Of a stretch of DNA of 64,000 bases, positions 8,613 through 61,306 are shown piece after piece (position 1 is the stretch's first letter; each line of letters begins with the position of its first letter). The stretch is from Filimonas lacunae (GTDB taxonomy: Bacteria > Bacteroidota > Bacteroidia > Chitinophagales > Chitinophagaceae). The translations under genes were made by a program, and so were the position numbers. The notes beneath the pieces are model-generated. The model made no database searches and was not told where the DNA came from. It worked only from the letters and a program-made list of their open reading frames with translations. Where the stretch lies: the NCBI RefSeq assembly GCF_002355595.1, contig NZ_AP017422.1, positions 1,612,001 to 1,676,000 on the forward strand, written 5' to 3'.

Positions 8613-9584
8613 ATGTTTGGTGATTCGGATGTACGTGAATGCGGAAGAAGGGCTGCAGCAACAACAACAACAACGCGCAGGCCGGCAGGTAAAAGCAATG
8701 ACTCTAATACGTTTTATGAACTGGCAACGCCCGATGGCATACATATCCGGTATTATAAAATTGTTGCTGCCGAACCAGGCAAGGTGATTATTGAAAACGC
8801 ATTGCCAGGAATACAACTGAGTTATACCATACACGGTACAAAATGCTACCGTATACGGAATGGTATGCAGGAGCTGATCTGTTTAAAAAAGCAGGAATAT
8901 AATTACCTGTTCCTGGCGCCTGAGCCCATTCATCTTACCTGGCAGGCAGGCGAACAAATAGAAATGTTTGAACTTACCATTAATCCTGATCTGATGTTGT
9001 ATTATTTATCGGAAGATCATCCGTTATATGGCAGATTACAGCAAAGCCTGCAACAGAAAAAGTCAATGGTGATGAACGATACCAGTCAGCTTATTAAGGC
9101 TAAAAGCAATAGTATATTATACGACATATTGTATTGCCCGTTAGAGGGCAGGTACAAGCAGTTGTATATTAAAAGCAAGGTAGGGGAGTTGCTGGCCCTG
9201 GAACTGGGTGCCTATGAAAAGCAAATGAGCATAACAGGTAGCCATACCACCCGGCCATTGCGTTTGAAACAGCGGGATATTGAAAAAATGCACCTGGTAA
9301 AGGATATTATTTTATCCGATTTTACTAAAACCTATTCTTTGCTGGACCTGGCGCAACAGGTAGGTACCAACGATTCTTATTTAAAACGCCACTTTAAAGA
9401 AGTATTTGGCACTACGGTGTATGGGTTTATACAGGATGCTAAAATGGAAAACGCCCGTAAGCTGTTGCTGGAAGGACATAATGTGTCGGGTACTGCTTTT
9501 ATGATGGGGTACAAACATGCAGTGCATTTTACCCGTGCCTTTAAAAAGTATTTCAGTATCAGCCCTAACCAGATTGCTAAATAG
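8613..9584 (+). CDS. AraC family transcriptional regulator of the siderophore locus
   Basis: A 323-residue protein with an N-terminal effector or dimerisation region of about 200 residues and two C-terminal helix-turn-helix motifs. The first is in SLLDLAQQVGTNDSYLKRHF and the second includes VSGTAFMMGYKHAVHFTRAF and the terminal signature YFSISPNQIAK. It resembles PchR, YbtA and AlcR-type regulators, which activate siderophore genes when the cognate ferric chelate is present. The position between receptor and biosynthesis operon supports that role, as inference. The first roughly 30 residues contain five Thr codons from a CAA-type trinucleotide run near 8658-8675 and may not belong to the folded protein; the start codon is uncertain. 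Confidence 0.85.
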   Translation: MFGDSDVRECGRRAAATTTTTRRPAGKSNDSNTFYELATPDGIHIRYYKIVAAEPGKVIIENALPGIQLSYTIHGTKCYRIRNGMQELICLKKQEYNYLFLAPEPIHLTWQAGEQIEMFELTINPDLMLYYLSEDHPLYGRLQQSLQQKKSMVMNDTSQLIKAKSNSILYDILYCPLEGRYKQLYIKSKVGELLALELGAYEKQMSITGSHTTRPLRLKQRDIEKMHLVKDIILSDFTKTYSLLDLAQQVGTNDSYLKRHFKEVFGTTVYGFIQDAKMENARKLLLEGHNVSGTAFMMGYKHAVHFTRAFKKYFSISPNQIAK

Positions 9585-9701: not shown

Positions 9702-10829
9702 ATGGAAAGTCTTCTTCTAACCTCGGTAAACGAACCGCAGTCAGTAAGCGATCTTATTACACAACCACCTTTAGCACCTGCCATCATCCAGATAACTGCT
9801 GATGAAAGGGAGGAAATTACCAGTATTGGTAAATATTTAAAAAGAAAGTATGGCAGTTATGAACGTGCAGACTATATAGCAGCCCTGCACATGAATGCCT
9901 TCCGGTTGTTGCCGGAACGCATTGTACGGTTGCTGAACAGGCTGGGTACCGATTTTTCGGCCCGTCAGTATGGGGCGGTGGTGTTAAAGGGGTTGATAGA
10001 AGTAGACCACGAAGCATTGGGTGCTACTCCCGCCAGCTGGCGCGAGATGGACAAGGAGCGTATAGTGGAATACGGTTTTATTTCATCATTACTGCATGGG
10101 GCAGTGCCTTCCAAGCCGGTGCAGTATTATGCACAACGCAAAGGCGGTGGTTTATTACATGCCATTATACCGGATGCCGGTATGGCCTGGTCGCAAACAG
10201 GATCGGGTTCTAAAACCGAACTGTTTGTACATACCGAAGACGCTTTTTTGTTTAACGCGGCCGACTTTTTAAGCTTTCTGTACCTGCGTAATGAAGAGCA
10301 GGTACCTTCTATGTTATATTCTATTCGCAGTCATCAGCAGGATGCTGCCGTATTACAGCCTTTGTTTGCGCCTATTTATACCTGTCCCAAAGATGCCAAT
10401 TATGCCGGGCAGGAAGCCATAGGGGAAGGAATCACTACTTCTGTGTTGTATGGCAACAGTAAAGCGCCTTTTATACGTTTTGATGCGGCGGAGCAGATTT
10501 ATAATACCGAAGCAGGGCAAAGTGCCGGTGCTATGGAACATTTAAAAGCTTTCTGGAAGGAAGCTCGCGAATTGATTTACTGTGATTTTATCCCGGAATC
10601 GGGCGACCTGATTTTTGTAAACAATCATCTGTGTGCACATGGCAGGAGTGCTTTTACTGCCGGTTTCAGAAATGAAGGCGGTAACATGGTACCCTGCGAA
10701 AGAAGAATGATGCTGCGTATGATGAGTAAAACCAGCCTGTTGCATATTCAGCAGGTGGCCCATCCCTATAATCCTTACCTGGTGATGGAAGAACATTACG
10801 GCAAGGTGTATACTTCTGTTCAAAATTAA
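9702..10829 (+). CDS. Fe(II)/2-oxoglutarate oxygenase, TauD/clavaminate-synthase-like, probable lysine (amino-acid) hydroxylase
   Basis: A 375-residue protein from ATG 9702; the frame is open upstream only to a TTG at 9651. The facial triad is visible: His177-x-Glu179 in FVHTEDAF and distal His313 in NNHLCAHGRSAF, with Arg residues after it (ERRMMLRMM) for 2-oxoglutarate. HxE instead of HxD is typical of the VioC/AsnO/KDO branch, which hydroxylates free amino acids at C3 or C4. Lysine 4-hydroxylases of the KDO group are known from Chitinophaga and Flavobacterium. It is the first gene of the siderophore operon, 13 nt before the GNAT gene, so hydroxylation of lysine before decarboxylation is a reasonable inference. 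Aspartate or arginine as substrate is the alternative. Confidence 0.75.
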   Translation: MESLLLTSVNEPQSVSDLITQPPLAPAIIQITADEREEITSIGKYLKRKYGSYERADYIAALHMNAFRLLPERIVRLLNRLGTDFSARQYGAVVLKGLIEVDHEALGATPASWREMDKERIVEYGFISSLLHGAVPSKPVQYYAQRKGGGLLHAIIPDAGMAWSQTGSGSKTELFVHTEDAFLFNAADFLSFLYLRNEEQVPSMLYSIRSHQQDAAVLQPLFAPIYTCPKDANYAGQEAIGEGITTSVLYGNSKAPFIRFDAAEQIYNTEAGQSAGAMEHLKAFWKEARELIYCDFIPESGDLIFVNNHLCAHGRSAFTAGFRNEGGNMVPCERRMMLRMMSKTSLLHIQQVAHPYNPYLVMEEHYGKVYTSVQN

Positions 10830-10842
10830 TCCTGTTTATCGT

Positions 10843-12030
10843 ATGCAAAAAGTATTGTCTCCTTTAACAGGCTATGATAAAGACGGGATTGTATTTAAAA
10901 AACAACCACCCGGTTATGGCGCTTTTCATTTGCGACCCCTGCGTATAGCAGAAGATATTGCTGTTATCCATAACTGGGTAAACAGAAGTTATGCACAATA
11001 CTGGCAAATGCAGAACACTACCCCGGAAGAAGTGAAAGCCGCCTATGTGGCTATTACAGAAACCCGGCACACGCAGGTTTTTATGGGCTTTTATGAAAAC
11101 AAACCGGCGTTTTTGCTGGAGTGCTACTGGGTAATGAACGACCCCTTGGGCAAGTACTATGATGTTCGGCCTGGTGATTATGGTTTTCATATACTGGTAG
11201 CCCCGGCCGATGCACCTATACGCCATTTTACCTGGCAGGTGTTTACGGTAATCATCGATTTTATGCTATCCAATGCTGCTATCGAGCGTTTGGTGGTAGA
11301 GCCGGATATCAGGAATGAAAAAATTCATGTATTGAATAAACGGGCAGGATTTGCGTATCAGCAGATGATTGATCTGCCGCATAAACAGGCTTACCTGGCC
11401 TTTTGTACCCGCGAGCAATATGCAATTGCCAGAAACAAGCCGGAAGTGCACGATCTGCTGTATAGTCAACAGTGGCAGGGATGGGGCACCTTCTCTTTCA
11501 GGCCCCTACAGATAGAACAGGATATTCCCTTGATTCACGATTGGGTAAACCGCGATTATGCGAAGTACTGGCAAATGCAGCAAACCACGCCGGAGCAGGT
11601 AAAAGCCAGTTACATGGCTATTACACAGGCGCCACATTCTAACGCCTATATGGGATTTTATAATAACCAGCCGGCTTTTTTATGGGAAAGTTATCATGTG
11701 ATGAAAGATCCTATTGCCGGGTATTATGATGCACAGGAAGGCGATTATGGATTGCATTTGCTGGTGGCTCCCGTAGAAACGCCTATTCACGGGTTTACTT
11801 ATCATATACTATGTACCATCATGGATTATATGCTGCAGAACAGCCAAGTGAAGCGGCTGATTGTAGAACCGGATGTGTGCAACGATAAAATGCATGTGCT
11901 TACCCGCCGTGTGGGTTTTGAATATCACCAGGCGGTGCAGCTGCCACAAAAACAGGCCTACCTGGCTTTTTGTACACGCGAGCAATACAGGCAACACCGG
12001 CAGGCTGCGGCATCCACTATTCTTCATTAA
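10843..12030 (+). CDS. Tandem-duplicated GNAT acyltransferase (two IucB-like domains in one chain)
   Basis: A 395-residue protein made of two homologous halves, residues about 22-195 and 212-385. Each begins FRPL/LRPL with an HxWVNRxYAxYWQMQ segment and ends with VEPDxxNxKxHVLxxRxGF. A near-identical block, KQAYLAFCTREQY, closes both halves. The fold matches the IucB/RhbD/MbtK branch of GNAT enzymes, which transfer an acyl group from acyl-CoA to the N-hydroxy amine of the siderophore unit to form the hydroxamate. Known relatives have one domain of this type, so the fusion is unusual. Both halves keep the conserved core residues, so both may be active, or one may be structural. The gene lies 14 nt from the decarboxylase gene. 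Confidence 0.85.
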   Translation: MQKVLSPLTGYDKDGIVFKKQPPGYGAFHLRPLRIAEDIAVIHNWVNRSYAQYWQMQNTTPEEVKAAYVAITETRHTQVFMGFYENKPAFLLECYWVMNDPLGKYYDVRPGDYGFHILVAPADAPIRHFTWQVFTVIIDFMLSNAAIERLVVEPDIRNEKIHVLNKRAGFAYQQMIDLPHKQAYLAFCTREQYAIARNKPEVHDLLYSQQWQGWGTFSFRPLQIEQDIPLIHDWVNRDYAKYWQMQQTTPEQVKASYMAITQAPHSNAYMGFYNNQPAFLWESYHVMKDPIAGYYDAQEGDYGLHLLVAPVETPIHGFTYHILCTIMDYMLQNSQVKRLIVEPDVCNDKMHVLTRRVGFEYHQAVQLPQKQAYLAFCTREQYRQHRQAAASTILH

Positions 12031-12044
12031 ATAATAAAAAAGAT

Positions 12045-13592
12045 ATGAATTTTAATACTATTGATACCACTACTGCTTTGCCGGTATATACTACACAGCA
12101 GGCAAAGGATTATAAAGATATTTTTTACGAAGGCGCCAGTAACGAATATTACCAGGCTATGGAAAGCGCCAGGGGAGTGGTAACTGCTTTCCTGGAAAAC
12201 AATACCCAGCCTTTTAGTGGCGTTACTCCTGCCCAGCTACGGGCTTTGTTTGCAGAGGTAGCGTTTGATACACCGTTAGAAAGTTATGCCCAACTGTTTG
12301 CAGAGGTAAAGCGTTTGTATGTGGATCATGCCACTGCTTTTCACCTGCCGCATTACATTGCGCATTTAAACTGCCCGGTAGTAATACCTGCCTTAGCAGC
12401 AGAAGTGCTGATTGCCGCTATCAACTCCTCGCAGGATACCTGGGATCAAAGTGCGGGCGGTACGTTGATGGAGCAAAAGCTGGTACAATGGACGTGTAAC
12501 GAAATAGGTTTTGGTACAGATGCAGATGGAGTGTTTACCGCAGGCGGCTCGCAGAGTAACCTGATGGGCATGTTGCTGGCAAGGGATTATTATGCTACTA
12601 CTTACCTGCAACATAACATCCGTAAAGAGGGGCTGCCGGCAGAAGCCAGCCGTTTCCGGTTCTTTGTTTCGGAAATGTCGCACTTTAGCTTGCAGAACAC
12701 CATTTCGTTGATGGGGCTGGGTGAAAAGGCGTTGATCCGCGTGGGTACGGATGCGGCATTCCGGATGGATGCCACCTTGCTGGAAAAGGCTATTCAGCAG
12801 GAGTTGAAAAATGGTAATATTCCTGTGGGGGTGGTGGCTACTGCCGGCACTACCGATTTTGGTAATATAGATCCGCTGGATGCTATAGGCAAACTGGCAG
12901 GTAAATACAATATGTGGTTTCATGTAGATGCTGCGTATGGTTGCGGGTTGTTACTTACCCATAAATATCGCCACCTGTTACAAGGTATCGAGCAGGCGAA
13001 TTCTGTTACTACCGATTATCATAAAGCATTCTTTCAGCCTATCAGCAGCAGTGCTTTGCTGGTAAAGCATCATCATTACCTGAACCTGATCACCCATCAT
13101 GCCGATTACCTGAACCCGGAAGAGAATGAGTTTGCGGGGCTGAACCAGATTGATAAAACTATTACACAAAGTACCCGCCGTTTTGATGCACTGAAGCTAT
13201 GGTGTACACTGCGTATGATGGGCAAGCAAAAGCTGGGTGCTTATATTGATACCATTATTGAAACAACGGCTGCTACGGCGGATGTGATTGCTGCCGATAA
13301 TGATTTTGAATTGCTTTGTTATTCGGATATCAGCGCACTGGTGTTTCGTTATCATCCGGCAGCTATCCGGGCTTACCAGGTGGGCGATGCATTAAACCAG
13401 CATATTAAGAAAGAGATGTTCCAGGAAGGCAAGGCCATTGTGGCCGGTACGCGTGTAAATGGCGAGTTTTATCTCAAGTTTACCTTGTTAAACCCGCTTA
13501 CTACCCTGGAGCATATACACGATATTTTATCTATTGTAAAAAGGCATGGCGCGGCTTATTGCCAATCTTATCTCGCTACCCTTAACAGTTAA
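12045..13592 (+). CDS. PLP-dependent amino-acid decarboxylase (group II), probable lysine or hydroxylysine decarboxylase
   Basis: A 515-residue enzyme from ATG 12045. It shows the group II decarboxylase landmarks: FTAGGSQSNLMGML (phosphate loop), the TAGTTDFGNIDPLDAIG segment, HVDAAYGCG with the Asp that pairs with the pyridinium nitrogen, and the Schiff-base lysine in TTDYHKAFFQP. Relatives in siderophore clusters are DesA (lysine to cadaverine) and RhbB (diaminobutyrate to diaminopropane). No diaminobutyrate aminotransferase (RhbA) is present in the operon, which favours lysine as substrate. If the upstream oxygenase acts first, the substrate would be hydroxylysine and the product hydroxycadaverine. 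That chemistry is inference. Confidence 0.85.
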   Translation: MNFNTIDTTTALPVYTTQQAKDYKDIFYEGASNEYYQAMESARGVVTAFLENNTQPFSGVTPAQLRALFAEVAFDTPLESYAQLFAEVKRLYVDHATAFHLPHYIAHLNCPVVIPALAAEVLIAAINSSQDTWDQSAGGTLMEQKLVQWTCNEIGFGTDADGVFTAGGSQSNLMGMLLARDYYATTYLQHNIRKEGLPAEASRFRFFVSEMSHFSLQNTISLMGLGEKALIRVGTDAAFRMDATLLEKAIQQELKNGNIPVGVVATAGTTDFGNIDPLDAIGKLAGKYNMWFHVDAAYGCGLLLTHKYRHLLQGIEQANSVTTDYHKAFFQPISSSALLVKHHHYLNLITHHADYLNPEENEFAGLNQIDKTITQSTRRFDALKLWCTLRMMGKQKLGAYIDTIIETTAATADVIAADNDFELLCYSDISALVFRYHPAAIRAYQVGDALNQHIKKEMFQEGKAIVAGTRVNGEFYLKFTLLNPLTTLEHIHDILSIVKRHGAAYCQSYLATLNS

Positions 13593-13613
13593 TCCTTACA
13601 TAATAGAACAAAC

Positions 13614-15449
13614 ATGAAACCGAACATACAAGTATCTGCCCTGCAGTCTGTGGCACATTTACAGCCGGCTGTATGGAGTAAGGTGAACCGCCTGCATTTA
13701 CGCAAAGTAATCAGTGAGTTTGCACACGAGCTGCTGGTAACACCCCGGCTGGAACATAGCAAGGATGGGTGGGGGTATTATGTATTACCCGCCGATAATG
13801 CTGCTATTGAATATCATTTCAGGGCAAAGAAGCTGGCTTTGGATCAGTGGTATATTGATACGGCTTCTATACAGAAAATGGTGAACGGCCATAGTGAACC
13901 ATTAGATTCACTCAGCTTTATCATTGAGTTTAAAACAACACTGGGCATTACAGAAACGGTGTTGCCTGTTTACCTGGAAGAGGTGAACAGTACGCTTTGT
14001 GGCAGTGCCTATATGCACACCTATAACACCCTTACTGCGGAGGAGCTTACCCGGGCCGACTACCAGCAAACGGAACAGGCTATGATGGCAGGTCATCCCT
14101 GCTTTGTTGCCAATAACGGCCGTATGGGGTTTGATGCGAGTGATTACCGGGTTTATGCGCCGGAAGCCGCTGACCCGTTACGGTTGTTGTGGCTGGCAGC
14201 ACATAACAGCCGCGCACAGTATGCAGGGGTAACAGATCTGCCTTACGAAGCGCTGGTACAGAACGAGCTGGATGGGGCTACACTTACAGCTTTTAAACAG
14301 GTATTACTGGATAAAGGGCTGGATGTACATGCCTATTATTTTATACCGGTACATCCCTGGCAGTGGTTTAATAAACTGGCGCTGTTGTTTGCCGGTGATA
14401 TTGCCGCAGATAAACTGGTATACCTGGGATATGCGCCCGATCAATACCTGCCGCAGCAATCTATCCGCACTTTTTACAATGTCAGCTCGCCAGGTAAGCG
14501 GTATGTAAAAACAGCTTTATCTATTTTAAACATGGGCTTTATGCGGGGCCTGCATGCCAGCTTTGCCTGCACTTCTCCCGCTATCAGTGAGTGGGTGGGC
14601 AATGTAGTAAAGCAGGACGCCTACCTGCGTGAAAAAGGATTTGTAGTGCTGCAAGAAGTGGCGGCAGCAGGATATACCAATCCCGATTATGCCAGTGTGG
14701 TAAGGGATGACAATACCTCTTTTAATGGAATGCTATCTGCTTTGTGGCGCGAAAGTCCGCAATCGGTGCTACAGCCAGGACAACGTATCATTACAATGGC
14801 AGCCTTGCTGCATGTGGATAGCTATGGTGATGCCTTGCTGCCTGCACTTATCCGTTCATCGGGTTTATCTGTTGCCAGCTGGATACGTAAATACCTGCAA
14901 TGTTATGTAAGTCCCTTATTGCATTGTTATTACTACCACGATATGCGTTTTATGCCGCATGGCGAAAACCTGATACTGATATTGGAAAACAATGTCCCCG
15001 TTGGGGCTATTATGAAAGATATAGGAGAAGAGATTGCGGTGCTGAGTAAAGCCGTGGCATTACCGGATAACGTGAAGCAGATTTATATGGAGGTGCCGGA
15101 CGAGTTGCGCATCCTGTCTATCTTCACGCAAATATTCGATTGTTTCTTCCGCTTTTTAAACAATATACTGGTAGAGCATGCTGATTTTCCGGAAGAGGAG
15201 TTCTGGCAGCTGGCCGCGGAATGTATATTGGACTATCAGCGGCAGTACCCACAATTACAGGATAAGTTTGAACGCTTTAACCTGTTTGCTCCTGAAATTA
15301 TTAAAACCTGTTTAAACAGGCTGCAATTGCGCAATAACCGCAAGATGGTAGATCATATGTATAATCCTTTTAAAAGTCAGCAGTTTGCAGGCATGCTCAC
15401 CAATCCAATGGCCGCCTTTGTACAGCAGTCAGAGCCTGCTGTTGTATAG
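13614..15449 (+). CDS. IucA/IucC family NIS siderophore synthetase, first copy
   Basis: A 611-residue ATP-dependent synthetase that joins a carboxylate (citrate, succinate or a hydroxamate-bearing acid) to an amine or hydroxylamine through an acyl adenylate. Family landmarks are present: GHPCFVANNGRMGFDASDY with the ATP-binding GHP motif, HPWQWFNKL, SIRTFYN, and RFMPHGENLILI followed by MKDIGEEI in the C-terminal FhuF-like part. The length is normal for the family. It is followed after 32 nt by a paralogue of the same size. Two synthetases together fit either sequential condensation on citrate, as in aerobactin, rhizobactin or arthrobactin, or a division of labour on mixed substrates. Confidence 0.9.
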   Translation: MKPNIQVSALQSVAHLQPAVWSKVNRLHLRKVISEFAHELLVTPRLEHSKDGWGYYVLPADNAAIEYHFRAKKLALDQWYIDTASIQKMVNGHSEPLDSLSFIIEFKTTLGITETVLPVYLEEVNSTLCGSAYMHTYNTLTAEELTRADYQQTEQAMMAGHPCFVANNGRMGFDASDYRVYAPEAADPLRLLWLAAHNSRAQYAGVTDLPYEALVQNELDGATLTAFKQVLLDKGLDVHAYYFIPVHPWQWFNKLALLFAGDIAADKLVYLGYAPDQYLPQQSIRTFYNVSSPGKRYVKTALSILNMGFMRGLHASFACTSPAISEWVGNVVKQDAYLREKGFVVLQEVAAAGYTNPDYASVVRDDNTSFNGMLSALWRESPQSVLQPGQRIITMAALLHVDSYGDALLPALIRSSGLSVASWIRKYLQCYVSPLLHCYYYHDMRFMPHGENLILILENNVPVGAIMKDIGEEIAVLSKAVALPDNVKQIYMEVPDELRILSIFTQIFDCFFRFLNNILVEHADFPEEEFWQLAAECILDYQRQYPQLQDKFERFNLFAPEIIKTCLNRLQLRNNRKMVDHMYNPFKSQQFAGMLTNPMAAFVQQSEPAVV

Positions 15450-15481
15450 TTGTATGCTTTCACCGAATAAACAAAAATGTA

Positions 15482-17311
15482 ATGGAAATACTTACCAGTG
15501 CTCTTGCGCAGCAAAACGGGCTGGCACATATACAACCGGCTGTGTGGCAGAAAGCCACCCGGTTACTGATTAAAAAAATGATAGCAGAATTTGCGCATGA
15601 ACAAATTCTGCAGCCACAGCTTACCGGTGAAAAAGATGGGTGGAATACCTATGTGCTCAAGGCCAATGGAAAAGCGGTGGAGTATCATTTTCATGCACGG
15701 GTGTTGAGCTTGCATCACTGGCACATTGATATCGATTCTATTGTTAAAATAGCCAACGGCGATACCGCTTTGCCGGATGCTTTGCAGTTTATGATTGAGT
15801 TCAATGATATGATAGGTATTAGTGATGCTATGTTACCCGTATACCTGGAAGAAGTGGCCGGTACTTTATATGGCAGTGCTTATATTCTTACCCATAATAC
15901 GCAATCATCGGCCATGCTGGTGCATGCCGGTTACCAGGAAATAGAACGTACTATGACAGGGCACCCGCGTTTTATTCCCAACAACGGGCGGGTAGGGTTT
16001 GATGCACAGGATTATAGCCGGTATGCACCGGAAGCGGCGGGGCCATTGCCATTATTATGGATAGCAGCACATCATAGCCGTGCTGAGTTTACAGCTATTG
16101 CCGGGCTTACCTATCAGCAGGTGATAGCCCAGGAACTGGGTAGTGATACCATACAGACTTTTGAAGCTATCCTGAAAGAGAAGGGCCTGTCTGCAGAAGA
16201 ATACTTTTTTATGCCGGTGCATCCCTGGCAGTGGTATAATAAGCTCATCACTTTATTTACACAGGATATAGCCAATGGTTATATGGTTTGCCTGGGAGCA
16301 GGTAACGATCTGTACCAGCCGCAACAGTCTATCCGCACCTTCTTTAACCTTAGTGATGCGAACAAATATTATGTAAAAACGGCGCTGGGTATATTGAATA
16401 TGGGGTATGTGCGCATTTTATCACCCTACTTTATGCGCACTACGCCGGCAATTAATGAGTGGGTATATGCCGTGACAGAAAGCGATGGCTATTTGAAGCA
16501 ATGTGGTTTTTGCGTTTTACGGGAAGTGGCTACTATGGGGTATACCAACAAGCATTACGAAGCGGCTTTGCAGGAAGATAGTCCCTATAAAAAAATGCTG
16601 GCTGCCCTGTGGCGCGAAAGTCCTATGAGTAAGCTACAGCCGGGGCAACAGTTAATGACTATGGCAGCATTACTGCATATAGATACAGAGGGCGATGCTT
16701 TATTACCTGAGTTGATAAAGGCATCGGGATGGGAAGCGGATGCGTGGGTAAAACAATACCTGCATTGCTATCTCAAACCCTTGTTACATTGGTTTTATGC
16801 CCACGATACGGTGTTTATGCCGCATGGCGAAAACCTGGTGCTGGTGATGGATAAGCATGTGCCGGTACGGGCCATTATGAAAGACATTGGAGAAGAGGTG
16901 TCTGTGATGAATGAGTCTGTTGTGTTACCGGAGAAAGCGCAACGGATAAGGGTAACAGTGCCGGAAGAATTAAAAACACGTCCTGTGCTTACGCAGGTGT
17001 TCGATTCTATCTTCCGCTTTATTGCAGCCATCCTGCACGAACAGGGCGACTATGCAGAAGACCGGTTTTGGAAAGCGGTGGCAGACTGTATACACGAATA
17101 CCAGCAACAACATCCGCATTTACACGAAAAGTTTACGCAGTACCATTTGTTTGAGCCGCTGATTACACCGGATGGTTTAAACAGGATGCAAATACTGGAT
17201 AACCGTAAACTGCGTAACAGGGATAATCCTTTTGATGTGCCCACCACGGGGGCGATGACAAACCCGGTAGCTGTTTTTAACCAGGAGGCTTTAAACGGAT
17301 TCCGGAAATGA
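15482..17311 (+). CDS. IucA/IucC family NIS siderophore synthetase, second copy
   Basis: A 609-residue paralogue of the preceding gene, similar along its whole length: GHPRFIPNNGRVGFDAQDY, HPWQWYNKL, SIRTFFN, FMPHGENLVLV and MKDIGEEV all recur at matching positions. The pair therefore probably arose by tandem duplication within this lineage or an ancestor. Catalytic residues look intact in both, so neither is a pseudogene. The second synthetase could add the second hydroxamate arm to the product of the first. The stop codon region overlaps the start of the prolyl oligopeptidase gene (ATG 17308 inside the ATGA), so the genes are translationally coupled. Confidence 0.9.
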   Translation: MEILTSALAQQNGLAHIQPAVWQKATRLLIKKMIAEFAHEQILQPQLTGEKDGWNTYVLKANGKAVEYHFHARVLSLHHWHIDIDSIVKIANGDTALPDALQFMIEFNDMIGISDAMLPVYLEEVAGTLYGSAYILTHNTQSSAMLVHAGYQEIERTMTGHPRFIPNNGRVGFDAQDYSRYAPEAAGPLPLLWIAAHHSRAEFTAIAGLTYQQVIAQELGSDTIQTFEAILKEKGLSAEEYFFMPVHPWQWYNKLITLFTQDIANGYMVCLGAGNDLYQPQQSIRTFFNLSDANKYYVKTALGILNMGYVRILSPYFMRTTPAINEWVYAVTESDGYLKQCGFCVLREVATMGYTNKHYEAALQEDSPYKKMLAALWRESPMSKLQPGQQLMTMAALLHIDTEGDALLPELIKASGWEADAWVKQYLHCYLKPLLHWFYAHDTVFMPHGENLVLVMDKHVPVRAIMKDIGEEVSVMNESVVLPEKAQRIRVTVPEELKTRPVLTQVFDSIFRFIAAILHEQGDYAEDRFWKAVADCIHEYQQQHPHLHEKFTQYHLFEPLITPDGLNRMQILDNRKLRNRDNPFDVPTTGAMTNPVAVFNQEALNGFRK

Positions 17312-19443
17312 AAAAGTGCATAGTCTTAGTATGGATAGCTGTTTGCGGGTATGTGCACACGGCAGCACAGCCGCTGTGGAAATACCCGGTTGCGGTAAAG
17401 GATACCGTGGCCGACCGGTATTTTGATACTACCATTTACGATCCTTACCGTTGGCTGGAAAATGATACCATAGCCCTTACCCGGCAATGGATAGCGCAAC
17501 AGAATGCTGCTACGCAGGATTATCTGGCCACTATTCCTTTCCGGGAAAAGATACGGGCTTATTTAACCCGTAAATGGAATTATACCCGTGAGACGCCACC
17601 TGTAAAAATGGGGGAGTATTATTTGTTCAGTCGCAACAACGGTTTACAGAACCAGAATGTATGGTATCTTAAAAAAGGCCTGGTTGGCAAAGAGGAAGTA
17701 CTGCTGGACCCCAACACTTTTTCGGCAGATGGCACGGTGGCTGTAACCATGCTGGGGGCTTCGGCTGATAAAAGGTACATTGCCTATGCAGTAGCAGAAG
17801 GCGGATCGGATTGGAACAGGATGTATGTGCTGGATGTCACCAACCGAACACGGCTGCCTGATATGCTGCAATGGGTAAAGTTTCCGAGGGCGGCATGGAA
17901 AGGCAACGGCTTTTATTATAGCCGTTATCCTGCACCGGAAAAAGGGCACGAACTGTTTGCACGTAATACCGGCAATGCCATTTATTATCACCATTTGGGC
18001 AGCAGCCAGGAAACAGACTCGCTGGTGTTTACAGATGGCTCCGACAGCAAGGTGAGTGTGGGCGCTTCTGTTACAGAAGATGAACGTTTTCTGATCATAT
18101 GCGCAGTAAAAGGTTCTTTCCTGGGGTATAAATTGAACAGCTCAACAGGTAACGCGTTGTTTTGCCAGGATTTATCGGTGCCCCATTCGCCTATAGATAC
18201 GCTGGTGAGCGATTACAATCATCATAATATTATTATTGATAACGCAGGAGGTGACCTGTTGCTGCAAACCGACAGGGATGCACCTGCTAATAAAGTGGTA
18301 TTGATGCATCCACACCAGCCGCAACCTTCTTTGTGGAAGCTGGTGGTGCCGGAGCAAAAAGAATCGCTGGTGAATATTGAAACCGGTGGTGGCTTTATGT
18401 GGTTGCAGTACTTGCAGGATGCCAGTTCGGTTATTCACCAGTATACCTATAGCGGCAGCAAGGTGGGTGCAGTAGCTTTGCCTGCTATTGGCACTGCCAG
18501 TGGTTTTGCTGCGGGAAAAAGGGATACTGCCTTGTTTTATACGTTTACCAATTGTGTAACGCCGCCTGCTATATACCTGTATGTGATGACCAACGGGCAG
18601 TCGGCTGTATACAGCCAGCCCCGGCTGGATATAGATGCCAATGACTATGTAATAAAGCGGGTGTTCTGTACCTCTAAAGATAGCACCCGTGTGCCCATGT
18701 TCATTGTGCATAAAAAAGGGATGCTGCTGGATGCATCTCACCCTGCTTTTGTGTTAGGGCATGGTGGGTTTAAGCGCAATCTTACCCCCTTCTTTCATGT
18801 GGCTATTATGATGTTCCTGGAACAGGGAGGTGTATATGCACAGCCGGCCCTGCGTGGTGGTAATGAGTATGGTGAAGCCTGGCATCAGGGAGGTATGCGG
18901 CAGAACAAGCAACATGTGTTTGACGATTGTATAGCAGCTACGGAATACTTGGTAAAAGAAGGGTATACCCAGCCTGGGCGTATTGCTATTTCGGGGCAAA
19001 GCACGGGGGCGGTAATGGTGGCTGCCTGTAGTAATCAACGGCCCGATTTGTTTAAGGTGGCGCTGCCGGCTGTAGGTATGCAGGATATGCTGCGTTACCA
19101 TAAGTTTACTATCGGAGCCAGTTGGGCCGAGGAATATGGTACCAGTGATAAGGAAGCTCAGTTTCGTTACCTGGTCCGCTATTCACCCCTGCATAATATC
19201 CGGCCAGGTATTCACCCGGCTACTTTTATCACTACGGCCGACCATGACGATACGGTGGTGCCGGGTCACTCTTACAAGTTTGCTGCTGCGTTGCAGGCTA
19301 ACCAACAAGGGGATAATCCTGTATTTATACGCATTGACAGCCGTTCGGGACATGGACCCGGTAAGCCCACGCATAAGCAGATAGAAGAAGCGACGGATGT
19401 GTGGAGTTTTGTTTTCAGGAATTTAGGTATGGACTTTCATTAA
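17308..19443 (+). CDS. Exported prolyl-oligopeptidase-like serine hydrolase inside the siderophore operon
   Basis: A 711-residue protein with a signal peptide (MKKCIVLVWIAVCGYVHTAA), an N-terminal segment (YPVAVKDTVADRYFDTTIYD then PYRWLEND) and a seven-bladed propeller typical of S9A prolyl oligopeptidases. A C-terminal alpha/beta-hydrolase domain follows. The catalytic triad is visible: Ser565 in GQSTGA, Asp near 647 in TADHDDTVVP and His682 in SGHGPGKP, at spacing like that of classical enzymes. The nucleophile elbow is GQSTGA rather than the usual GGSNGG, which may alter specificity. It overlaps the second NIS synthetase by 4 nt, so it belongs to the operon. A role in hydrolysing or processing the siderophore in the periplasm is suggested by context only. 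Confidence 0.85.
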   Translation: MKKCIVLVWIAVCGYVHTAAQPLWKYPVAVKDTVADRYFDTTIYDPYRWLENDTIALTRQWIAQQNAATQDYLATIPFREKIRAYLTRKWNYTRETPPVKMGEYYLFSRNNGLQNQNVWYLKKGLVGKEEVLLDPNTFSADGTVAVTMLGASADKRYIAYAVAEGGSDWNRMYVLDVTNRTRLPDMLQWVKFPRAAWKGNGFYYSRYPAPEKGHELFARNTGNAIYYHHLGSSQETDSLVFTDGSDSKVSVGASVTEDERFLIICAVKGSFLGYKLNSSTGNALFCQDLSVPHSPIDTLVSDYNHHNIIIDNAGGDLLLQTDRDAPANKVVLMHPHQPQPSLWKLVVPEQKESLVNIETGGGFMWLQYLQDASSVIHQYTYSGSKVGAVALPAIGTASGFAAGKRDTALFYTFTNCVTPPAIYLYVMTNGQSAVYSQPRLDIDANDYVIKRVFCTSKDSTRVPMFIVHKKGMLLDASHPAFVLGHGGFKRNLTPFFHVAIMMFLEQGGVYAQPALRGGNEYGEAWHQGGMRQNKQHVFDDCIAATEYLVKEGYTQPGRIAISGQSTGAVMVAACSNQRPDLFKVALPAVGMQDMLRYHKFTIGASWAEEYGTSDKEAQFRYLVRYSPLHNIRPGIHPATFITTADHDDTVVPGHSYKFAAALQANQQGDNPVFIRIDSRSGHGPGKPTHKQIEEATDVWSFVFRNLGMDFH

Positions 19444-19461
19444 TCATTAATTATCGTGTAT

Positions 19462-20781
19462 ATGCAAAAGATCTATTCTATTATAGGTATTGGTATAGGA
19501 CCTTTTAACCTGGGGCTGGCCGCTTTGCTGGAACCGGTTACAGATGTGAGTGCTTTGTTCTTTGACCAGACAGATGAGTTTGACTGGCATGCGGGCTTAA
19601 TGCTGCAAAATACCACTTTGCAGGATCCGTTTATGGGTACCGACCTGGTAACTATGGCCGATCCTACCAGCCGTTATAGTTTTCTGAATTTTTTAAAACA
19701 AACGGGCAGGCTGTACCGGTTTTTAATCCGTCACGATTTTTACATGTTGCGTCGTGAATACAATGTGTATTGCAAATGGGTGGCCAGCCAGTTAAACAGC
19801 TGCCGTTTCAGTCATCGTGTAACGGGTATCAGTTATGAAGAAGGGCTGTATGTAGTTACCGTAAAGCATACACATACTGGTTTGGTACAAACCTATTATG
19901 CACAAAAACTAGTGCTGGGTACGGGAACGCAACCGGTATTACCTGCTTTTGTTAACAGGGAGGTGCTGCCGGGTGTTATTCATTCCTCGGAGTATTTGCC
20001 TAACAAACCCGCGCTTTTGCAAAAAGGGGCATTAACCATTATTGGTTCGGGACAAAGTGCCGCTGAAATATTCTACGATTTGCTACCCGAAACGAAAAAT
20101 GGTTTTCGCCTGCATTGGTTTACCCGGTCAGACCGCTTTTTCCCGATGGAGCATTCCAAGCTTACCCTTGAAATCAGTTCGCCGGATTATATCAGTTATT
20201 TCCATCGTTTATCAGCAGCAAAAAAGGCAGAAATACTCACTACGCAAAGCTCCTTATCCAAAGGCATTAATGGCAGCCTGATAGACCAGATTTATGATGC
20301 CTTGTACGAGATGACGGTAGGAGGTGTGTTGTTGCCGGTGGAGTTGAGAAGCAACTGTGAATTACAGGCTATAGCACAGCAACAGGACGGGCTATACACG
20401 CTTTTACTGAAACAGGTGCAGCAGCAGAAAGAATTCTCACATACGGCCCCTGCGGTGCTGATGGCTACAGGATATAAATATCACACACCAGGTTGCATTG
20501 CGGGTATTGAACACCGTATACGCCGCACATCGGATGGGCTGCTGAACGTGCATCGTAACTACACGGTGGATGTAGATAACAACAGCATATTTGTACAGAA
20601 CGCTGAAACCCATACACATGGTTTTACTACGCCGGATCTGAGCCTGGGCGCGCATCGCAACTCCTGGATCATTAATGCGGTTGCAGGAAGGGAGGTATAT
20701 GTGATAGATGAACGCATTGCTTACCAGGATTTTGGTGTGGCAGGTGTTACGGCATCGTTAGAGCAGCTGGTATTAAGTTAG
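19462..20781 (+). CDS. L-lysine/ornithine (diamine) N-monooxygenase, IucD/SidA family
   Basis: A 439-residue flavoprotein from ATG 19462; a GTG at 19456 is also in frame. It uses FAD, NADPH and O2 to N-hydroxylate a terminal amine, the first step toward a hydroxamate. Motifs seen are the FAD Rossmann loop IGIGIGPFNLGLA at the N-terminus, the NADPH loop GSGQSAAEIFYDLL near residue 197, and the C-terminal ATGY motif (LMATGYKYHTP). With a decarboxylase upstream, the substrate may be cadaverine (DesB-like) rather than lysine. It lies 19 nt after the prolyl oligopeptidase gene and 20 nt before the MATE gene. Confidence 0.9.
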   Translation: MQKIYSIIGIGIGPFNLGLAALLEPVTDVSALFFDQTDEFDWHAGLMLQNTTLQDPFMGTDLVTMADPTSRYSFLNFLKQTGRLYRFLIRHDFYMLRREYNVYCKWVASQLNSCRFSHRVTGISYEEGLYVVTVKHTHTGLVQTYYAQKLVLGTGTQPVLPAFVNREVLPGVIHSSEYLPNKPALLQKGALTIIGSGQSAAEIFYDLLPETKNGFRLHWFTRSDRFFPMEHSKLTLEISSPDYISYFHRLSAAKKAEILTTQSSLSKGINGSLIDQIYDALYEMTVGGVLLPVELRSNCELQAIAQQQDGLYTLLLKQVQQQKEFSHTAPAVLMATGYKYHTPGCIAGIEHRIRRTSDGLLNVHRNYTVDVDNNSIFVQNAETHTHGFTTPDLSLGAHRNSWIINAVAGREVYVIDERIAYQDFGVAGVTASLEQLVLS

Positions 20782-20800
20782 TTCTCTTTTAAAATGATAT

Positions 20801-22207
20801 ATGAACCCGGTGATTGTTAGAACACGCTCGGTAATGCAGTTGTGTAAGGTAGCTGTATTGGGCAAGGAAAGAAATTTTACCACCAGCAGTGTGTCCAGGG
20901 CCGCTTTTTTGCTGGCATTGCCTGCCATGCTGGAGCTGGTAGTGGAATCGTTGTTTGTGATTGTAGACCTGTTATATGTAAGCAGGCTGGGCACTAATGC
21001 TATCGCTATATCCGGCATGATCAGTTCGGTTATTCTTATTATATATTCTGTTCCTGTGGGGTTAAATATAGCGGCCACTTCGCTGGTGGCCCGGCGTACC
21101 GGAGAGAAACAGCCTTTACAGGCAGGGGCAACGGCCATACAGGCTATTTACGTGGGCATGGCTGTAGCTGTTGTATTAAGCACGCTGGCTTTATATGGTA
21201 ATAAAACCCTGCTGCACTGGATAGGTGCATCTGATACGCTTATACAGGAAGGCGGTACCTATGCCCGCATCCGTTTTGGCTGCCTGTTGTTTATGATACT
21301 GCGGGTGTTAATGAACGGAGTGTTCAGAGGATTGGGGGATGCAGCTATGGCCATGCGGGTGTTGCTGCTTACTTTTTCGATAAATGCGGTGTTAGGAGGG
21401 ATATTGATTTTTGGGTTAGGGCCTGTGCCTGCGCTGGGCTTAACGGGGGCGGCTATAGGTAATGTGGTGGGTAATGGCATTGCTGTGGCGTACCAGGGTT
21501 GGTATTTGAGCAGGCAACGCCTGTTGTGGCATACCAATGCTTCCTGGTTCCGTCCCGATTGGGGCATTATGCGCAAAATGGGAAAGCTGGGTATAGCCGG
21601 AACATTACAGTACCTGATTCCTTCCAGTAGCTGGTTACTGATGATGGGGATAGTGGCGCATCTGGGTAATGCTGCGTTAACCGGTTATATTATCGCTGAC
21701 CGCATTATCATCTGTGCCACTTTACCCGCCTGGGGCATCGCTAATGCGGCAGGTGTGCTAACCGGGCAAAACATTGGCGCAGGTTTGCTGCAAAGGGCCG
21801 AGCAAAGTGTATGGAAAACGGGACTGTTTAATGTATGCTTTTTGGGAGTAGTGGCTATAGGGTTGCTGCTGTTTACCTACCCGATTGCAGGCTTTTTTAC
21901 CAGTGATGCAGATGTGCTGCAAAACACGGTACTCTATCTGCGATGTATGGCTATTGCCTTTTTCTTTTTTGGTTATACAATGGTCATTTCCCGTTCGCTG
22001 AATGCAGCCGGGCATGTGCATATGGTGTCGTTATTATACGTGGGCATGTTTTACGTGATACAATTGCCACTGGCTTACTTATGGGGTATTACGTGGGGAG
22101 CGGGTTCGCGGGGTATATTCGGGGCTATCCTGGTTTCTGAAATTGCGCTGGCCATTACCTGTATTTTTTTGTTTAAAAAAGGCAGGTGGAAGACGGGGAA
22201 GCTGTAA
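20801..22207 (+). CDS. MATE family exporter, probable siderophore efflux pump
   Basis: A 468-residue integral membrane protein with about 12 hydrophobic segments arranged as two similar halves. The typical MATE start (AAFLLALPAMLELVVESLFV, then VDLLYVSRLGTNAIAISGM) is present. MATE pumps use proton or sodium gradients to expel small organic molecules. As the last gene of the biosynthesis operon it probably exports the apo-siderophore across the inner membrane. The reading frame is complete, and the end is rich in charged residues. A general drug exporter is the alternative, but the tight operon position argues for the dedicated role. Confidence 0.85.
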   Translation: MNPVIVRTRSVMQLCKVAVLGKERNFTTSSVSRAAFLLALPAMLELVVESLFVIVDLLYVSRLGTNAIAISGMISSVILIIYSVPVGLNIAATSLVARRTGEKQPLQAGATAIQAIYVGMAVAVVLSTLALYGNKTLLHWIGASDTLIQEGGTYARIRFGCLLFMILRVLMNGVFRGLGDAAMAMRVLLLTFSINAVLGGILIFGLGPVPALGLTGAAIGNVVGNGIAVAYQGWYLSRQRLLWHTNASWFRPDWGIMRKMGKLGIAGTLQYLIPSSSWLLMMGIVAHLGNAALTGYIIADRIIICATLPAWGIANAAGVLTGQNIGAGLLQRAEQSVWKTGLFNVCFLGVVAIGLLLFTYPIAGFFTSDADVLQNTVLYLRCMAIAFFFFGYTMVISRSLNAAGHVHMVSLLYVGMFYVIQLPLAYLWGITWGAGSRGIFGAILVSEIALAITCIFLFKKGRWKTGKL

Positions 22208-23186: not shown

Positions 23187-23304
23187 ATTGGCTGGTGGTT
23201 ACCAGTTTACCCCTCTTATTTTACGGGCTACACCCCGGTAGCTGTTGAAATGGCATGTTAATTTACTGCTGCCATAATTCTATTCATTGCATATAACCAT
23301 TCGT

Positions 23305-26300
23305 ATGAAAAAACATGTACCGATTGTAATTGCTTTCTGTTTTCTTTTGTGTACCAGTCTGTTAGCGCAGCCGAATTTGGCGGTAAAGGCTTCGTTAAGT
23401 CAAACCTTATCCGGCTCCCGCTCTTTCACCAACGGCACACAAGCCGATACCTTGCTAAAGTTGTTTGCTATTCCCCGCAACTACACGCTGGAGCTGGTAG
23501 CTAAAGTAAATGCCGCTGTTGGGCGGGGGCTGGATATAGAAGCGCGTAACGCTGGTATCCAGGGTTTCCGGCTTTCGCTGGATGCGGCTCATCTGAAAGA
23601 AGCCTCTTCTTTAAATGCGGTTACACCTGTTACGGTGTCAAAAGCAGCACAGCAACATACCATCCGTATTGCTGTGCAGAGCGATACGGCACATATTTAC
23701 CAGAACGGCGCTTATATTCAATCTCAGCCGCTTACCACTATTAAAGATATTGTAGGGGGCGTAGAAGCAGACGTAAGCAATTTGTATTTGCCGGGGTCTA
23801 ACCTCGCGCCGGGATGGGCAGGTGTTACCGGTAATTTTACCGGTGCGCCCGATAGTTATGGATGGGCTTATAACGGCATTGCTAATACGGGTTTGTTTAC
23901 AACCGCTAACAGTACCAGTGGTGTGCGTTACATGGATGTAAGCGCCAGTGTAAACACGCACACGTATAATGGCACCACCTATAACGGAAGATTATTGTTT
24001 CTAAGATGGGATGGCAGCGATATACAAAGCACCTGCTATACCCTGCCGGTAATGCTGGAAGCGAATACTACCTACGATTTTTCTATGTTGTTTGCCTATT
24101 TTTCCAATGCTACCGGTGGCACAGCTATTACAGCAGGCATAGGCAAAACAACAGCGGCGGCCGACAGGCTGGCCACGCATGTGTTTACTGCCAGCGCCAC
24201 CAAAGATCTGGTAAGGGAAAGTTTTGTATTTACCTCACAGGAAGCAGGCCAGTATTACCTGAGCTTCACCGGTAACTGGGGATTGTTTACCATAGGTGAA
24301 TTATCGTTAAACAAAAATGCACCCGGTAACCTGGTGCCCAACTGGGCAGGCATTGCGCCTAACAATGCAGGTACACCGGGCAATTACAGCTGGGCTTATA
24401 ATGGTACTACCACTTCTTTGTTTAATACTGCCAATGGCACCAGTGGTGTACGTTATACGGATGTAAGTTCCAGTGTAAACACACATAACTATAATGGTGC
24501 TACGTACAATGGCCGGCTATTGTTTTTGCGCTGGGATAACAGCGCCTATCAAAGCGCCTGTTATACGTATCCGGTAGTGCTGGAAGCCAATACCACTTAC
24601 GAATTCTCTATGTTGCATGCTTATTACTCCAATGCTACGGGCAGCAGAACCATCACCGCAGGAATTGGTAAAACCACGGCTGCCGCAAACAGGCTGGCAT
24701 TGCACGTGTTTGCTACCAACGGAACGAAGGAGCTTACCAAAGAGAAATTTTTATTTACCTCGCAGGAAACGGGGGTATACTATCTCACTTTTACCGGCGA
24801 CTGGGGTTTGTTTACAGTAGGTGAATTGTCGCTCACCAAATATGCAGCCACGCCACGCTTTGTGTTAGGGAAGAATTACATTACCGGCGCTGTGAACATG
24901 GAAATTACTTCGGCTACCTACGAAGATGGCGCGTATGCCCCGGCCGCACTGGTTACGCAAACGCCGGAGAATATAACGGTTACGGGCAGTATGGTATCGG
25001 TATTGCCTTCTTTCAACACCAACTTTATTGTGCCGGGAAAAACAGATCTGCATGTAACCGGTGCGTATTCTCCATTGGTCAATTCCACTGTTCAGCTGAA
25101 TGCAGATAATGCCTGGCTGTTCTTCGATAATATAAAACCTTCTGTTGTTGTAAGCAACTGGCTCAGTAAAGTAAGTATCAATGGTGTATCTGCTGTGGGT
25201 AATGCGAACGTACGCATTGCGCCTTATAAAAATGGTACCGCTATTATTCCCAATGGGAATGTTGCTTCACAGGCTGCTTTACAAGTATATACGCAACCGG
25301 GTTTATCAGGCAGCACTGCTAGTTATGCTATTAATACGTATTACAATAGTCTGGCTGCATGGGATAATAGTATACGCTCTTTTAAATTACAGAGAGGTTA
25401 TATGGCCACGCTGGCCAATAACCCGGATGGCACGGGATATAGCAGGGTGTTTGTAGCCAATGACAGTGACCTGGTGGTCAATGCTATGCCTGCGGGGTTA
25501 GATACTTCTGTGTCTTTTATCAGGGTGTTTGCCTGGGACTGGGTGAGCAAAAAAGGAAAAGCGGGGGGTGGTACGCCGTTGGTGTTATTGAACGGCACCT
25601 GGTATTACGACTGGAATATTGGCGGCGCTACTACCAGCGATTATAACTATGTGGCTATACGGCAAAACGGGGGATGGCCTGCCTGGTCGGCTATTAACAG
25701 TAAGCCGGGTGTGAATCATTTGCTGGGCTTTAATGAGCCTGACCGTCCCGACCAGGCGAATATGTCGGTAGATGAAGCGGTAAGACAGTGGCCCGATCTG
25801 ATGAAATCGGGATATCGTGTGGGATCGCCTGCGCCATCAGATCCGTTCAATGGCTGGGTTACTTCTTTCCTGGCTAAAACAGATGCGCTGAACTACCGGG
25901 TTGATTATGTAGCTATACATTGTTACTGGGGTGGCCTTACACCGCAAACCTGGTACAGCCGTTTAAAAAGCGTATACGACCAGGTGAAACGGCCGTTATG
26001 GATTACAGAGTGGAATAACGGAGCTAACTGGACAACGGAATCCTGGCCTACCGATACGGCTGCACAGTTTTTAAAACAATACAATGATATGAAGGGCATA
26101 TTGCAGGTGTTGGATACCACCTCGTTTATTGAGCGGTATGCTATATACGACTGGGTGACCGATAAGCGTGCCATGGTGCTGGCTGATACATTAACGCTGG
26201 CTGGCAGGTATTATGCCGCTAATCCATCCAATTTTGCCTATTCGCCGCAGACGGCTTTTGTACATAACTGGAAGCTGGTGGCTCCCAATATAGATACCAT

Positions 26301-31723: not shown

Positions 31724-31816
31724 TAGTAAATGCTTCTCCGCATATCGCAAAGAGCGGCGTTAAGGTTTGCGTTGCTTTGCGTGCCTGTTTTACAACAGGT
31801 ATTTAAAATAATCCAC

Positions 31817-34299: not shown

Positions 34300-34619
34300 G
34301 TTGTCCGAATTTATTGTGCTGTGCATTCCGGAGTAGCTGCGTGCAGCAAATCAATTGTTATGGGTTTTGTAAATAAGATGTAGGTATTTGTAACACAGCT
34401 GCATTCATAAGAAGCAGCTGACTTAGTTGTACTAATTTTTAAATGTGTAAAGAAAAGTTTATTTTTTGTGCTAATTTAATACGATGGATTTCCCGAAATT
34501 GCCCGTTAACGCTGAAATCGCCGTTCAGTCAGCCTGAAAAAAGAATAGAAAATAGTACAGAAGATATCAGTAAATAATAGAACTATTCATAAACCAGTAA
34601 ATAAGTGATTGTTTACCAG
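34300..34619. other. Non-coding leader region of the kinase gene
   Basis: A 320-bp A/T-rich region without a credible gene. It holds a small inverted repeat with 7-bp arms (CAGCTGC at 34396-34402, GCAGCTG at 34414-34420). No exact TAnnTTTG element was found. Confidence 0.4.
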
Positions 34620-37163: not shown

Positions 37164-37176
37164 GCAGCAAATTACC

Positions 37177-57455: not shown

Positions 57456-57483
57456 GCGTGTGTTTTTTAAAAGGGGGTTGCTG

Positions 57484-57924: not shown

Positions 57925-57933
57925 AGTGTTTTT

Positions 57934-58791: not shown

Positions 58792-58801
58792 GTTATGGTG
58801 C

Positions 58802-61279: not shown

Positions 61280-61306
61280 GAAAGTGTTTTTATAAATTAC
61301 TCGCTT

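Follow-up and report, generated by a model that had tools for sequence, protein, structure and literature searches.

Hydroxamate siderophores containing 3-hydroxycadaverine have been described in Chryseobacterium, where chryseochelin A consists of citrate bearing two N-hydroxy-N-fumaryl-3-hydroxycadaverine arms and is accompanied by an ester isomer, B, and by fatty-acyl forms, C (PMC9989332). In the passages concerned, that paper states that the pathway needs further proof; the terms gene cluster and antiSMASH are absent from its main text, and the relevant passages of a paper citing it name no cluster (PMC11734721). An operon that may make a related siderophore by another assembly route is found at positions 9702 to 22207 of a 64,000-nucleotide stretch of the Filimonas lacunae genome (contig NZ_AP017422.1, positions 1,612,001 to 1,676,000; this whole stretch is referred to below as the window). 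Like chryseochelin, its predicted product is a 3-hydroxycadaverine hydroxamate, and the producing genus carries relatives of its KDO-type oxygenase, decarboxylase, N-monooxygenase and MATE transporter. Chryseochelin differs in its citrate core and fumaryl groups, and the IucA-like synthetase-GNAT fusion of Chryseobacterium is absent from the window, whose operon is probably a sister line to chryseochelin.

Another system for comparison is the bsb locus for bisucaberin B in Tenacibaculum mesophilum, also of Bacteroidota, which like the window encodes a decarboxylase, an N-monooxygenase, two acyltransferase domains, two D-type domains and a putative exporter, but which, in the relevant part of its description, has no oxygenase among its six open reading frames (ORFs) and uses an MFS exporter (PMC6164419). 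Its D1 and D2 were published as 50% identical, compared with 51% for the window pair, and in E. coli D2 alone was active and gave a linear dimer (PMC6164419), so that a duplicated synthetase need not mean two reactions. The desferrioxamine enzymes (DfoC and its partners, and DesD) are the best PDB matches of the decarboxylase, N-monooxygenase, acyltransferase and synthetases of the window, which adds a lysine 4-hydroxylase and a second synthetase to that pathway. Alcaligin is a C-hydroxylated diamine macrocycle whose hydroxyl sits on putrescine and is introduced by another oxygenase type, and its synthetase AlcC is the second-best match of both window synthetases. Bacteroidetes have been reported to carry families of nonribosomal peptide synthetase-independent siderophore (NIS) genes like those for desferrioxamine and bisucaberin B, with hydroxylysine unmentioned in the relevant passages (PMC9248904), while those of another paper concern dehydroxylated and non-hydroxylated desferrioxamine forms (PMC7411998). 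A cyclic trihydroxamate siderophore, thalassosamide, is known from Thalassospira.

The F. lacunae operon comprises eight closely packed genes on the plus strand in the ORF listing, which likely form one transcription unit from oxygenase to MATE transporter, since the gaps between them are short (13, 14, 21, 32, -4, 12 and 19 bp from the oxygenase onward). A preliminary description of the locus had recognised the biosynthetic gene set; its ORFs are located where it placed them and their families are confirmed by Pfam, and it had passed over an S9 hydrolase inside the operon, an AraC regulator upstream and a divergent TonB receptor. By gene content the operon belongs with the HSD siderophore clusters (those for desferrioxamine, bisucaberin and alcaligin) and has, beyond their enzymes A to D, a lysine 4-hydroxylase; A (decarboxylase), B (diamine N-monooxygenase) and C (acyltransferase) are all present as judged by sequence. 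Its product is probably an oligomer of N-hydroxy-N-succinyl-3-hydroxycadaverine, i.e. a C-hydroxylated bisucaberin or desferrioxamine.

In the proposed pathway, the KDO would hydroxylate L-lysine at C4, the pyridoxal phosphate (PLP) enzyme would convert 4-hydroxylysine to 3-hydroxycadaverine, the flavoenzyme would N-hydroxylate one amine of this diamine, and the double GNAT protein would acylate the resulting hydroxylamine, most likely with succinyl-CoA. The two DfoC/DesD-like synthetases would then link the units through amide bonds to give a linear or cyclic dimer or trimer, where one synthetase perhaps elongates and the other closes the ring or takes a second acceptor; the MATE pump would export the siderophore and the divergent TonB receptor would return its iron complex. 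The [M+H]+ values computed for such products are 433.2293 for the cyclic dimer (C18H32N4O8), 451.2399 for the linear dimer and 649.3403 for the cyclic trimer. In chryseochelin, the 3-hydroxycadaverine unit has been reported to give fragments of m/z 117.10 and 100.08 (PMC9989332). The predicted hydroxylation, decarboxylation and N-hydroxylation steps are based on the enzymes belonging to families with closely related characterised members, and we infer the acyl group, the ring size and the division of labour between the synthetases.

The first gene (9702 to 10829) encodes a putative Fe(II)/2-oxoglutarate L-lysine 4-hydroxylase of the KDO type, which starts at the ATG at 9702 within an ORF that opens upstream at a TTG (9651), from which its residues are numbered here. 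Over residues 25-387 it matches PDB entry 6euo, an L-lysine 4-hydroxylase, with 513 bits (E=3.1e-153), where the runner-up among 15 matched chains reaches 70.5 bits and an L-lysine 3-hydroxylase 53.7 bits; its match to Pfam TauD (24.8 bits) lies under the cut-off of 27. H194, E196 and H330, which from the HxE...H motif we take to be the iron ligands, belong to the 119 alignment columns in which at most one of the 81 rows departs. An oxygenase of the arginine type was rejected, where GntD (130 bits) and VioC (110 bits) fall far under their cut-offs of 345 and 418.6 and chains of L-arginine beta-hydroxylase give at most 63 bits, compared with 513 for 6euo.

Members of the same family, KDO2 to KDO5 from Chitinophaga pinensis, Flavobacterium johnsoniae, Niastella koreensis and a Flavobacterium, form (4R)-4-hydroxy-L-lysine, and have been studied as biocatalysts, unlike the window enzyme, with their natural role unstated in the relevant passages (PMC12930750). 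The 362 aligned residues of 6euo are matched letter for letter in Flavobacterium sp. CF136 (locus L046), where the KDO gene is adjoined by decarboxylase, N-monooxygenase, NIS and MATE genes, which on this match makes the solved enzyme itself a siderophore-cluster gene. The window KDO is 62% identical to this row, i.e. to the solved lysine 4-hydroxylase, and 72% identical over residues 18-390 to that of Chitinophaga tropicalis (locus L013). Decarboxylation of 4-hydroxylysine gives 3-hydroxycadaverine. The predicted route from lysine through 4-hydroxylysine to 3-hydroxycadaverine in this operon is well supported, because the oxygenase is close to 6euo, which itself belongs to a siderophore cluster; in this respect the lysine hydroxylation and the KDO-type assignment of the preliminary description hold. 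Formation of 3-hydroxycadaverine has also been reported in engineered C. glutamicum (PMC11330790), in work cited by PMC12930750, as far as the relevant passages of both go.

Downstream of the oxygenase, the precursor enzymes point to the desferrioxamine pathway. The PLP group II decarboxylase, predicted to act on lysine or hydroxylysine (12045 to 13592; Pyridoxal_deC), begins at an ATG internal to an ORF that opens at 11970, and its nearest solved enzyme is 5o5c of the desferrioxamine pathway (E=1e-143), while its match to NF052646 (380.6 bits) is under the cut-off of 900. The flavin N-monooxygenase (19456 to 20781; Lys_Orn_oxgnase) appears to be of the diamine type by its nearest solved relatives, which are 5o8p of desferrioxamine biosynthesis (435 bits, E=2.8e-129), 6xbb (419 bits, E=1.6e-124) and the putrescine N-hydroxylase 7us3 (402 bits, E=2.7e-119); its best NCBIfam match, the putative histamine N-monooxygenase TIGR04439, scores 399.7 bits, under the cut-off of 700. 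N-hydroxylation of lysine instead of a diamine was rejected, where the L-lysine 6-monooxygenase 5cqf gives 107 bits against 402-435 for the diamine-type relatives. The acyltransferase (10843 to 12030) is a putative double GNAT hydroxylamine acyltransferase with Acetyltransf_8 in two stretches, whose domains are 57% identical to each other; the second matches 2qml with 84 bits, and a succinyl group is favoured because the first is nearest to the acyltransferase part of DfoC (189 bits, E=1.4e-54). The decarboxylation to hydroxycadaverine, diamine N-hydroxylation and acylation that had been proposed earlier thus gain support from these relatives, and as had been said, no aminotransferase, and hence no diaminobutyrate aminotransferase, is found by Pfam among the proteins of the operon.

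The synteny check suggested in the preliminary description bears out the association of these genes. Contigs were scanned with the KDO alignment and the best 80 of 113 relatives were taken as loci, where the KDO is present in all by construction and up to 10 kb on each side was examined. All 80 stand under Bacteroidota names, and relatives of the decarboxylase and the N-monooxygenase are each found near the KDO in 79, a GNAT domain in 76 and a MATE transporter in 64. The association of oxygenase, decarboxylase and N-monooxygenase is far beyond chance, as shown by these 79 of 80 loci; both partners are missed only at L062, which begins at a contig end near its oxygenase, and the GNAT domain was missed at the threshold used in L062, L027, L036 and L037. 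In L003 the KDO match is interrupted by one stop codon, reflecting sequencing error or decay, and in three loci a nitroreductase-family gene lies near KDO and decarboxylase (L046:9108-9767, L017:9166-9783 and L026:8414-9019), with none in the window operon and none between KDO and decarboxylase in the Chryseobacterium locus L075.

The assembly enzymes are two paralogous synthetases, NIS1 (13614 to 15449) and NIS2 (15482 to 17311), each with IucA_IucC and FhuF domains and of the DfoC/AlcC/DesD class. Compared with PDB chains, NIS1 scores 691 bits with DfoC, 655 with AlcC, 632 with DesD, 260 with IucC and 38 with IucA, and NIS2 scores 703, 633, 611, 245 and 41, respectively; AcsD is not among the 12 PDB matches listed for either. 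In the whole genome (7.8 Mb in a single contig, 99.97% complete) both IucA/IucC proteins are those of the operon, with no third, and no type A (IucA/AcsD-like) citrate synthetase occurs in operon or genome; two congeners have no IucA/IucC protein. In a FastTree tree of 153 synthetase domains, 15 NIS1 and 15 NIS2 proteins, those of the window included, form one clade (support 0.998) divided into an NIS1 clade (0.967) and an NIS2 clade (0.999), and because these are supported sister clades the pair seems to descend from a single old duplication and to have stayed together in Chitinophagaceae, Sphingobacteriaceae and a Flavobacterium. A larger group (0.982) unites the pair with DfoC, DesD, a single-synthetase group and the bsb-like loci L109 and L110, and leaves out NISC and NISA from citrate-type clusters, where the second synthetases form a separate set of 50 (0.83). 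Forks joining the sets inside the 0.982 group are weak (0.0 to 0.49) and leave the nearest relative of the pair unfixed; the pair's own clade excludes L109 and L110, which serve as proxies for the bsb sequences, themselves outside the tree. These two loci have no KDO in the stretch read, and carry a GNAT-synthetase fusion, a second GNAT and a second synthetase, as published for bisucaberin B.

Of 149 synthetases, at least 95% share 26 residues, all of which are intact in both members of the pair; on this basis NIS2 was judged probably not to be a dead paralogue. The NIS2 clade has another consensus in eight columns, six of them invariant in its 15 rows, where the changes include C163R within GHPCF and S502P (numbered as in NIS1). 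The unusual trait of this operon is its two paralogous synthetases, both apparently intact, and judging by similarity such a pair is kept in 14 of the 80 other KDO loci.

Among these loci, two kinds of assembly line are seen. In 50, a second synthetase accompanies a type A-like synthetase domain that is usually joined to a GNAT domain; 14 have two window-like synthetases and 12 have one; three more (L071-L073) have a type A synthetase alone in the DNA examined, and L062 has no synthetase there. The term citrate type denotes synthetase similarity, for which one Chryseobacterium locus (L075) was compared with PDB, together with bit-score thresholds. In L075 the first synthetase is nearest to IucA (167 bits), and the second is nearest to DesD and DfoC (408 and 406 bits), with IucC at 249. 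This locus (L075:1326-11074), like L076-L092 in the same order (Chryseobacterium, with Elizabethkingia in L078), runs KDO, decarboxylase, IucA-like synthetase-GNAT fusion, N-monooxygenase, second synthetase and MATE. It is proposed as a candidate for the chryseochelin gene cluster, at the level of the genus, where the chryseochelin strains CHR2, CHR5 and CHR6 lie outside the genome comparison.

On the KDO tree, with type-A-only loci treated as citrate type and L062 omitted, assembly type needs four changes, so that the assembly module appears to have been exchanged. The smallest well-supported set that contains the window KDO (99) holds both a two-synthetase locus (L013) and a citrate-type locus (L041), and the KDO therefore does not itself tell the product. 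In L014 (17145-18488) and its counterparts in L015, L016, L018-L020, L038, L039 (Pedobacter hartonius), L043, L057 and L061 (Sphingobacterium detergens), a weak type A match (31-52 bits) precedes the GNAT domain, suggestive of a citrate-type fusion that decayed upon the arrival of two DesD-like synthetases. The second synthetase of L069 is split over two ORFs, which may be sequencing error or decay.

A TonB-dependent siderophore receptor (5840 to 8236, minus strand; TIGR01783, 265 bits against a cut-off of 223.5) is divergent from the operon, and was compared in a tree of 21 rows, namely the complete receptors similar to that of the window and two further L071 receptors added by hand. Nine of ten receptors from two-synthetase clusters, including that of the window, form one group (96/98) that spans Chitinophagaceae, Sphingobacteriaceae and a Flavobacterium, and the seven from citrate-type clusters form a separate group (100/100) that spans Chitinophagaceae and Sphingobacteriaceae; for 43 of the 50 citrate-type loci there is no such receptor in the DNA examined. 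Where seen, the receptor thus appears to follow assembly type and not host family, a split that different products of the two lines would lead one to expect, which is support for this view and not proof. Across synthetase class, genome content and receptor, the evidence is consistent.

The KDO itself is rare: among sampled genomes it occurs in 6 of 395 for the phylum, 7 of 294 for the family and 1 of 3 for the genus (the F. lacunae genome counted each time). Of the eight phylum genomes with a close decarboxylase (>600 bits), six have it and two (G245 and G277) lack it; in the stretch read, the loci of those two genomes (L107 and L108) have a type A-GNAT fusion beside the decarboxylase. Several points weigh against an N-hydroxy-N-succinyl-3-hydroxycadaverine oligomer. 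The KDO is not obligatory, as the same two genomes show. Action of the decarboxylase on 4-hydroxylysine is predicted, while the sole assay found used (2S,3S)-3-hydroxylysine, on which, in the passages concerned, the C. pinensis and F. johnsoniae enzymes reached 50.6% and 1.1% of CadA (PMC9288024). DesD-likeness alone does not exclude work on citrate, as the second synthetase of L075 also leans to DesD and DfoC, and what carries the argument is the absence of a type A enzyme together with the higher scores of the window pair. Among 140 conserved columns, departures from the HSD group number three in NIS1 and four in NIS2. One two-synthetase receptor (L020) lies outside the group on a long branch, 5 of the 14 loci with two synthetases have no such receptor in the DNA examined, and in the receptor tree the software flagged that some long branches meet. 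The acyl group of chryseochelin, from a genus with KDO clusters, is fumaryl, and it could be the same in the window product. The conserved pair is itself unexplained, since one synthetase suffices for the known HSD siderophores, as far as the relevant account goes (PMC6164419).

One way to account for the pair would be that NIS1 forms amide bonds between the N-hydroxy-N-succinyl-3-hydroxycadaverine units, while in NIS2 the oxygen of the added 3-hydroxyl acts as the nucleophile; the product would then be a hydroxamate with ester (depsi) linkages that the S9 hydrolase would open. Such a compound would be to HSD siderophores what the proposed ester, chryseochelin B, is to the citrate type and, if true, would found a siderophore class of its own, with a separate group of receptors; it is a minor possibility. 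The S9 prolyl-oligopeptidase-type hydrolase (17308 to 19443; Peptidase_S9_N 338 bits, Peptidase_S9 192 bits) overlaps NIS2 by 4 bp and has an N-terminus which, judged by eye, resembles a signal peptide. A relative is found in 1 of the 80 loci (L013); among the few loci typed, a creatininase-like gene takes its position in L014, and a PF00756 esterase stands next to the KDO in L075.

The condensation on citrate given as an example in the preliminary description, as in arthrobactin, would place two acylated N-hydroxy-3-hydroxycadaverine arms on citrate, giving a siderophore of chryseochelin or hydroxy-arthrobactin type. The precursor genes do match those of the Chryseobacterium clusters, chryseochelin A is itself built in this way (PMC9989332, in the passages concerned), and the nearest KDO rows include the citrate-type L041. 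Such a product is nevertheless unlikely, as the operon and genome lack the IucA-like type A synthetase that L075 has and the window receptor stands apart from those of citrate-type clusters; the example is left unsupported because the synthetases are DfoC/AlcC/DesD-like, no other IucA/IucC protein is present and the receptor groups elsewhere. An oligomer in which fumaryl replaces succinyl is just as improbable. It would follow the chryseochelin acyl group, while the window acyltransferase is nearer to the DfoC part (189 bits) than to the L075 GNAT part (83 bits) and no acyl dehydrogenase family occurs among the proteins of the operon, both of which argue weakly against it.

In the last alternative, the operon makes plain bisucaberin or desferrioxamine and the oxygenase acts on another substrate or only occasionally, which would agree with A to D enzymes as in known HSD clusters and with the genomes that have a close decarboxylase and no KDO, but which is improbable given the 62% identity to the solved lysine 4-hydroxylase (L046 row), the decarboxylase near the KDO in 79 of 80 loci and the hydroxycadaverine found in a genus carrying KDO clusters.

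The preliminary description had also held that the pathway was undescribed and its product perhaps new. The first part requires revision, as a 3-hydroxycadaverine siderophore of citrate type, chryseochelin, was published in 2023, while the second still stands for this assembly type, which was not met in the open-access literature searched. There, neither a C-hydroxylated bisucaberin or desferrioxamine nor any other C-hydroxylated hydroxycadaverine siderophore was found, with the units of thalassosamide lying outside that coverage. The KDO lysine 4-hydroxylases, which are in use as biocatalysts, thereby gain a likely natural role in supplying a siderophore precursor, and a candidate gene cluster is offered for chryseochelin. 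A sister series of C-hydroxylated bisucaberins and desferrioxamines is predicted, in which the assembly enzymes have been exchanged and the precursor module kept, with the receptor changing with assembly type.

The MATE efflux transporter (20801 to 22207; MatE, TIGR00797 with 208 bits against a cut-off of 147) is the probable siderophore exporter, and an AraC-family regulator (8613 to 9584, plus strand, start uncertain; HTH_18 72.8 bits), a possible local activator, ends 117 bp before the oxygenase ATG. A promoter pattern of the Bacteroidota type gives 4 matches against 3.43 expected in the window, with none upstream of the first genes of the operon, and no tRNA is found in the window. Elsewhere in the window, a large protein that combines a glycosyl hydrolase core with a Por secretion tail is encoded at 23287-26865 (plus strand), and a second TonB-dependent receptor (31730-34243, plus strand) lies just ahead of a histidine kinase and a response regulator of the sigma-54 type (34605-39138). 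Type VI secretion-like genes for TssF, a Clp-like AAA ATPase and TssR occupy 55572-63718 on the minus strand.

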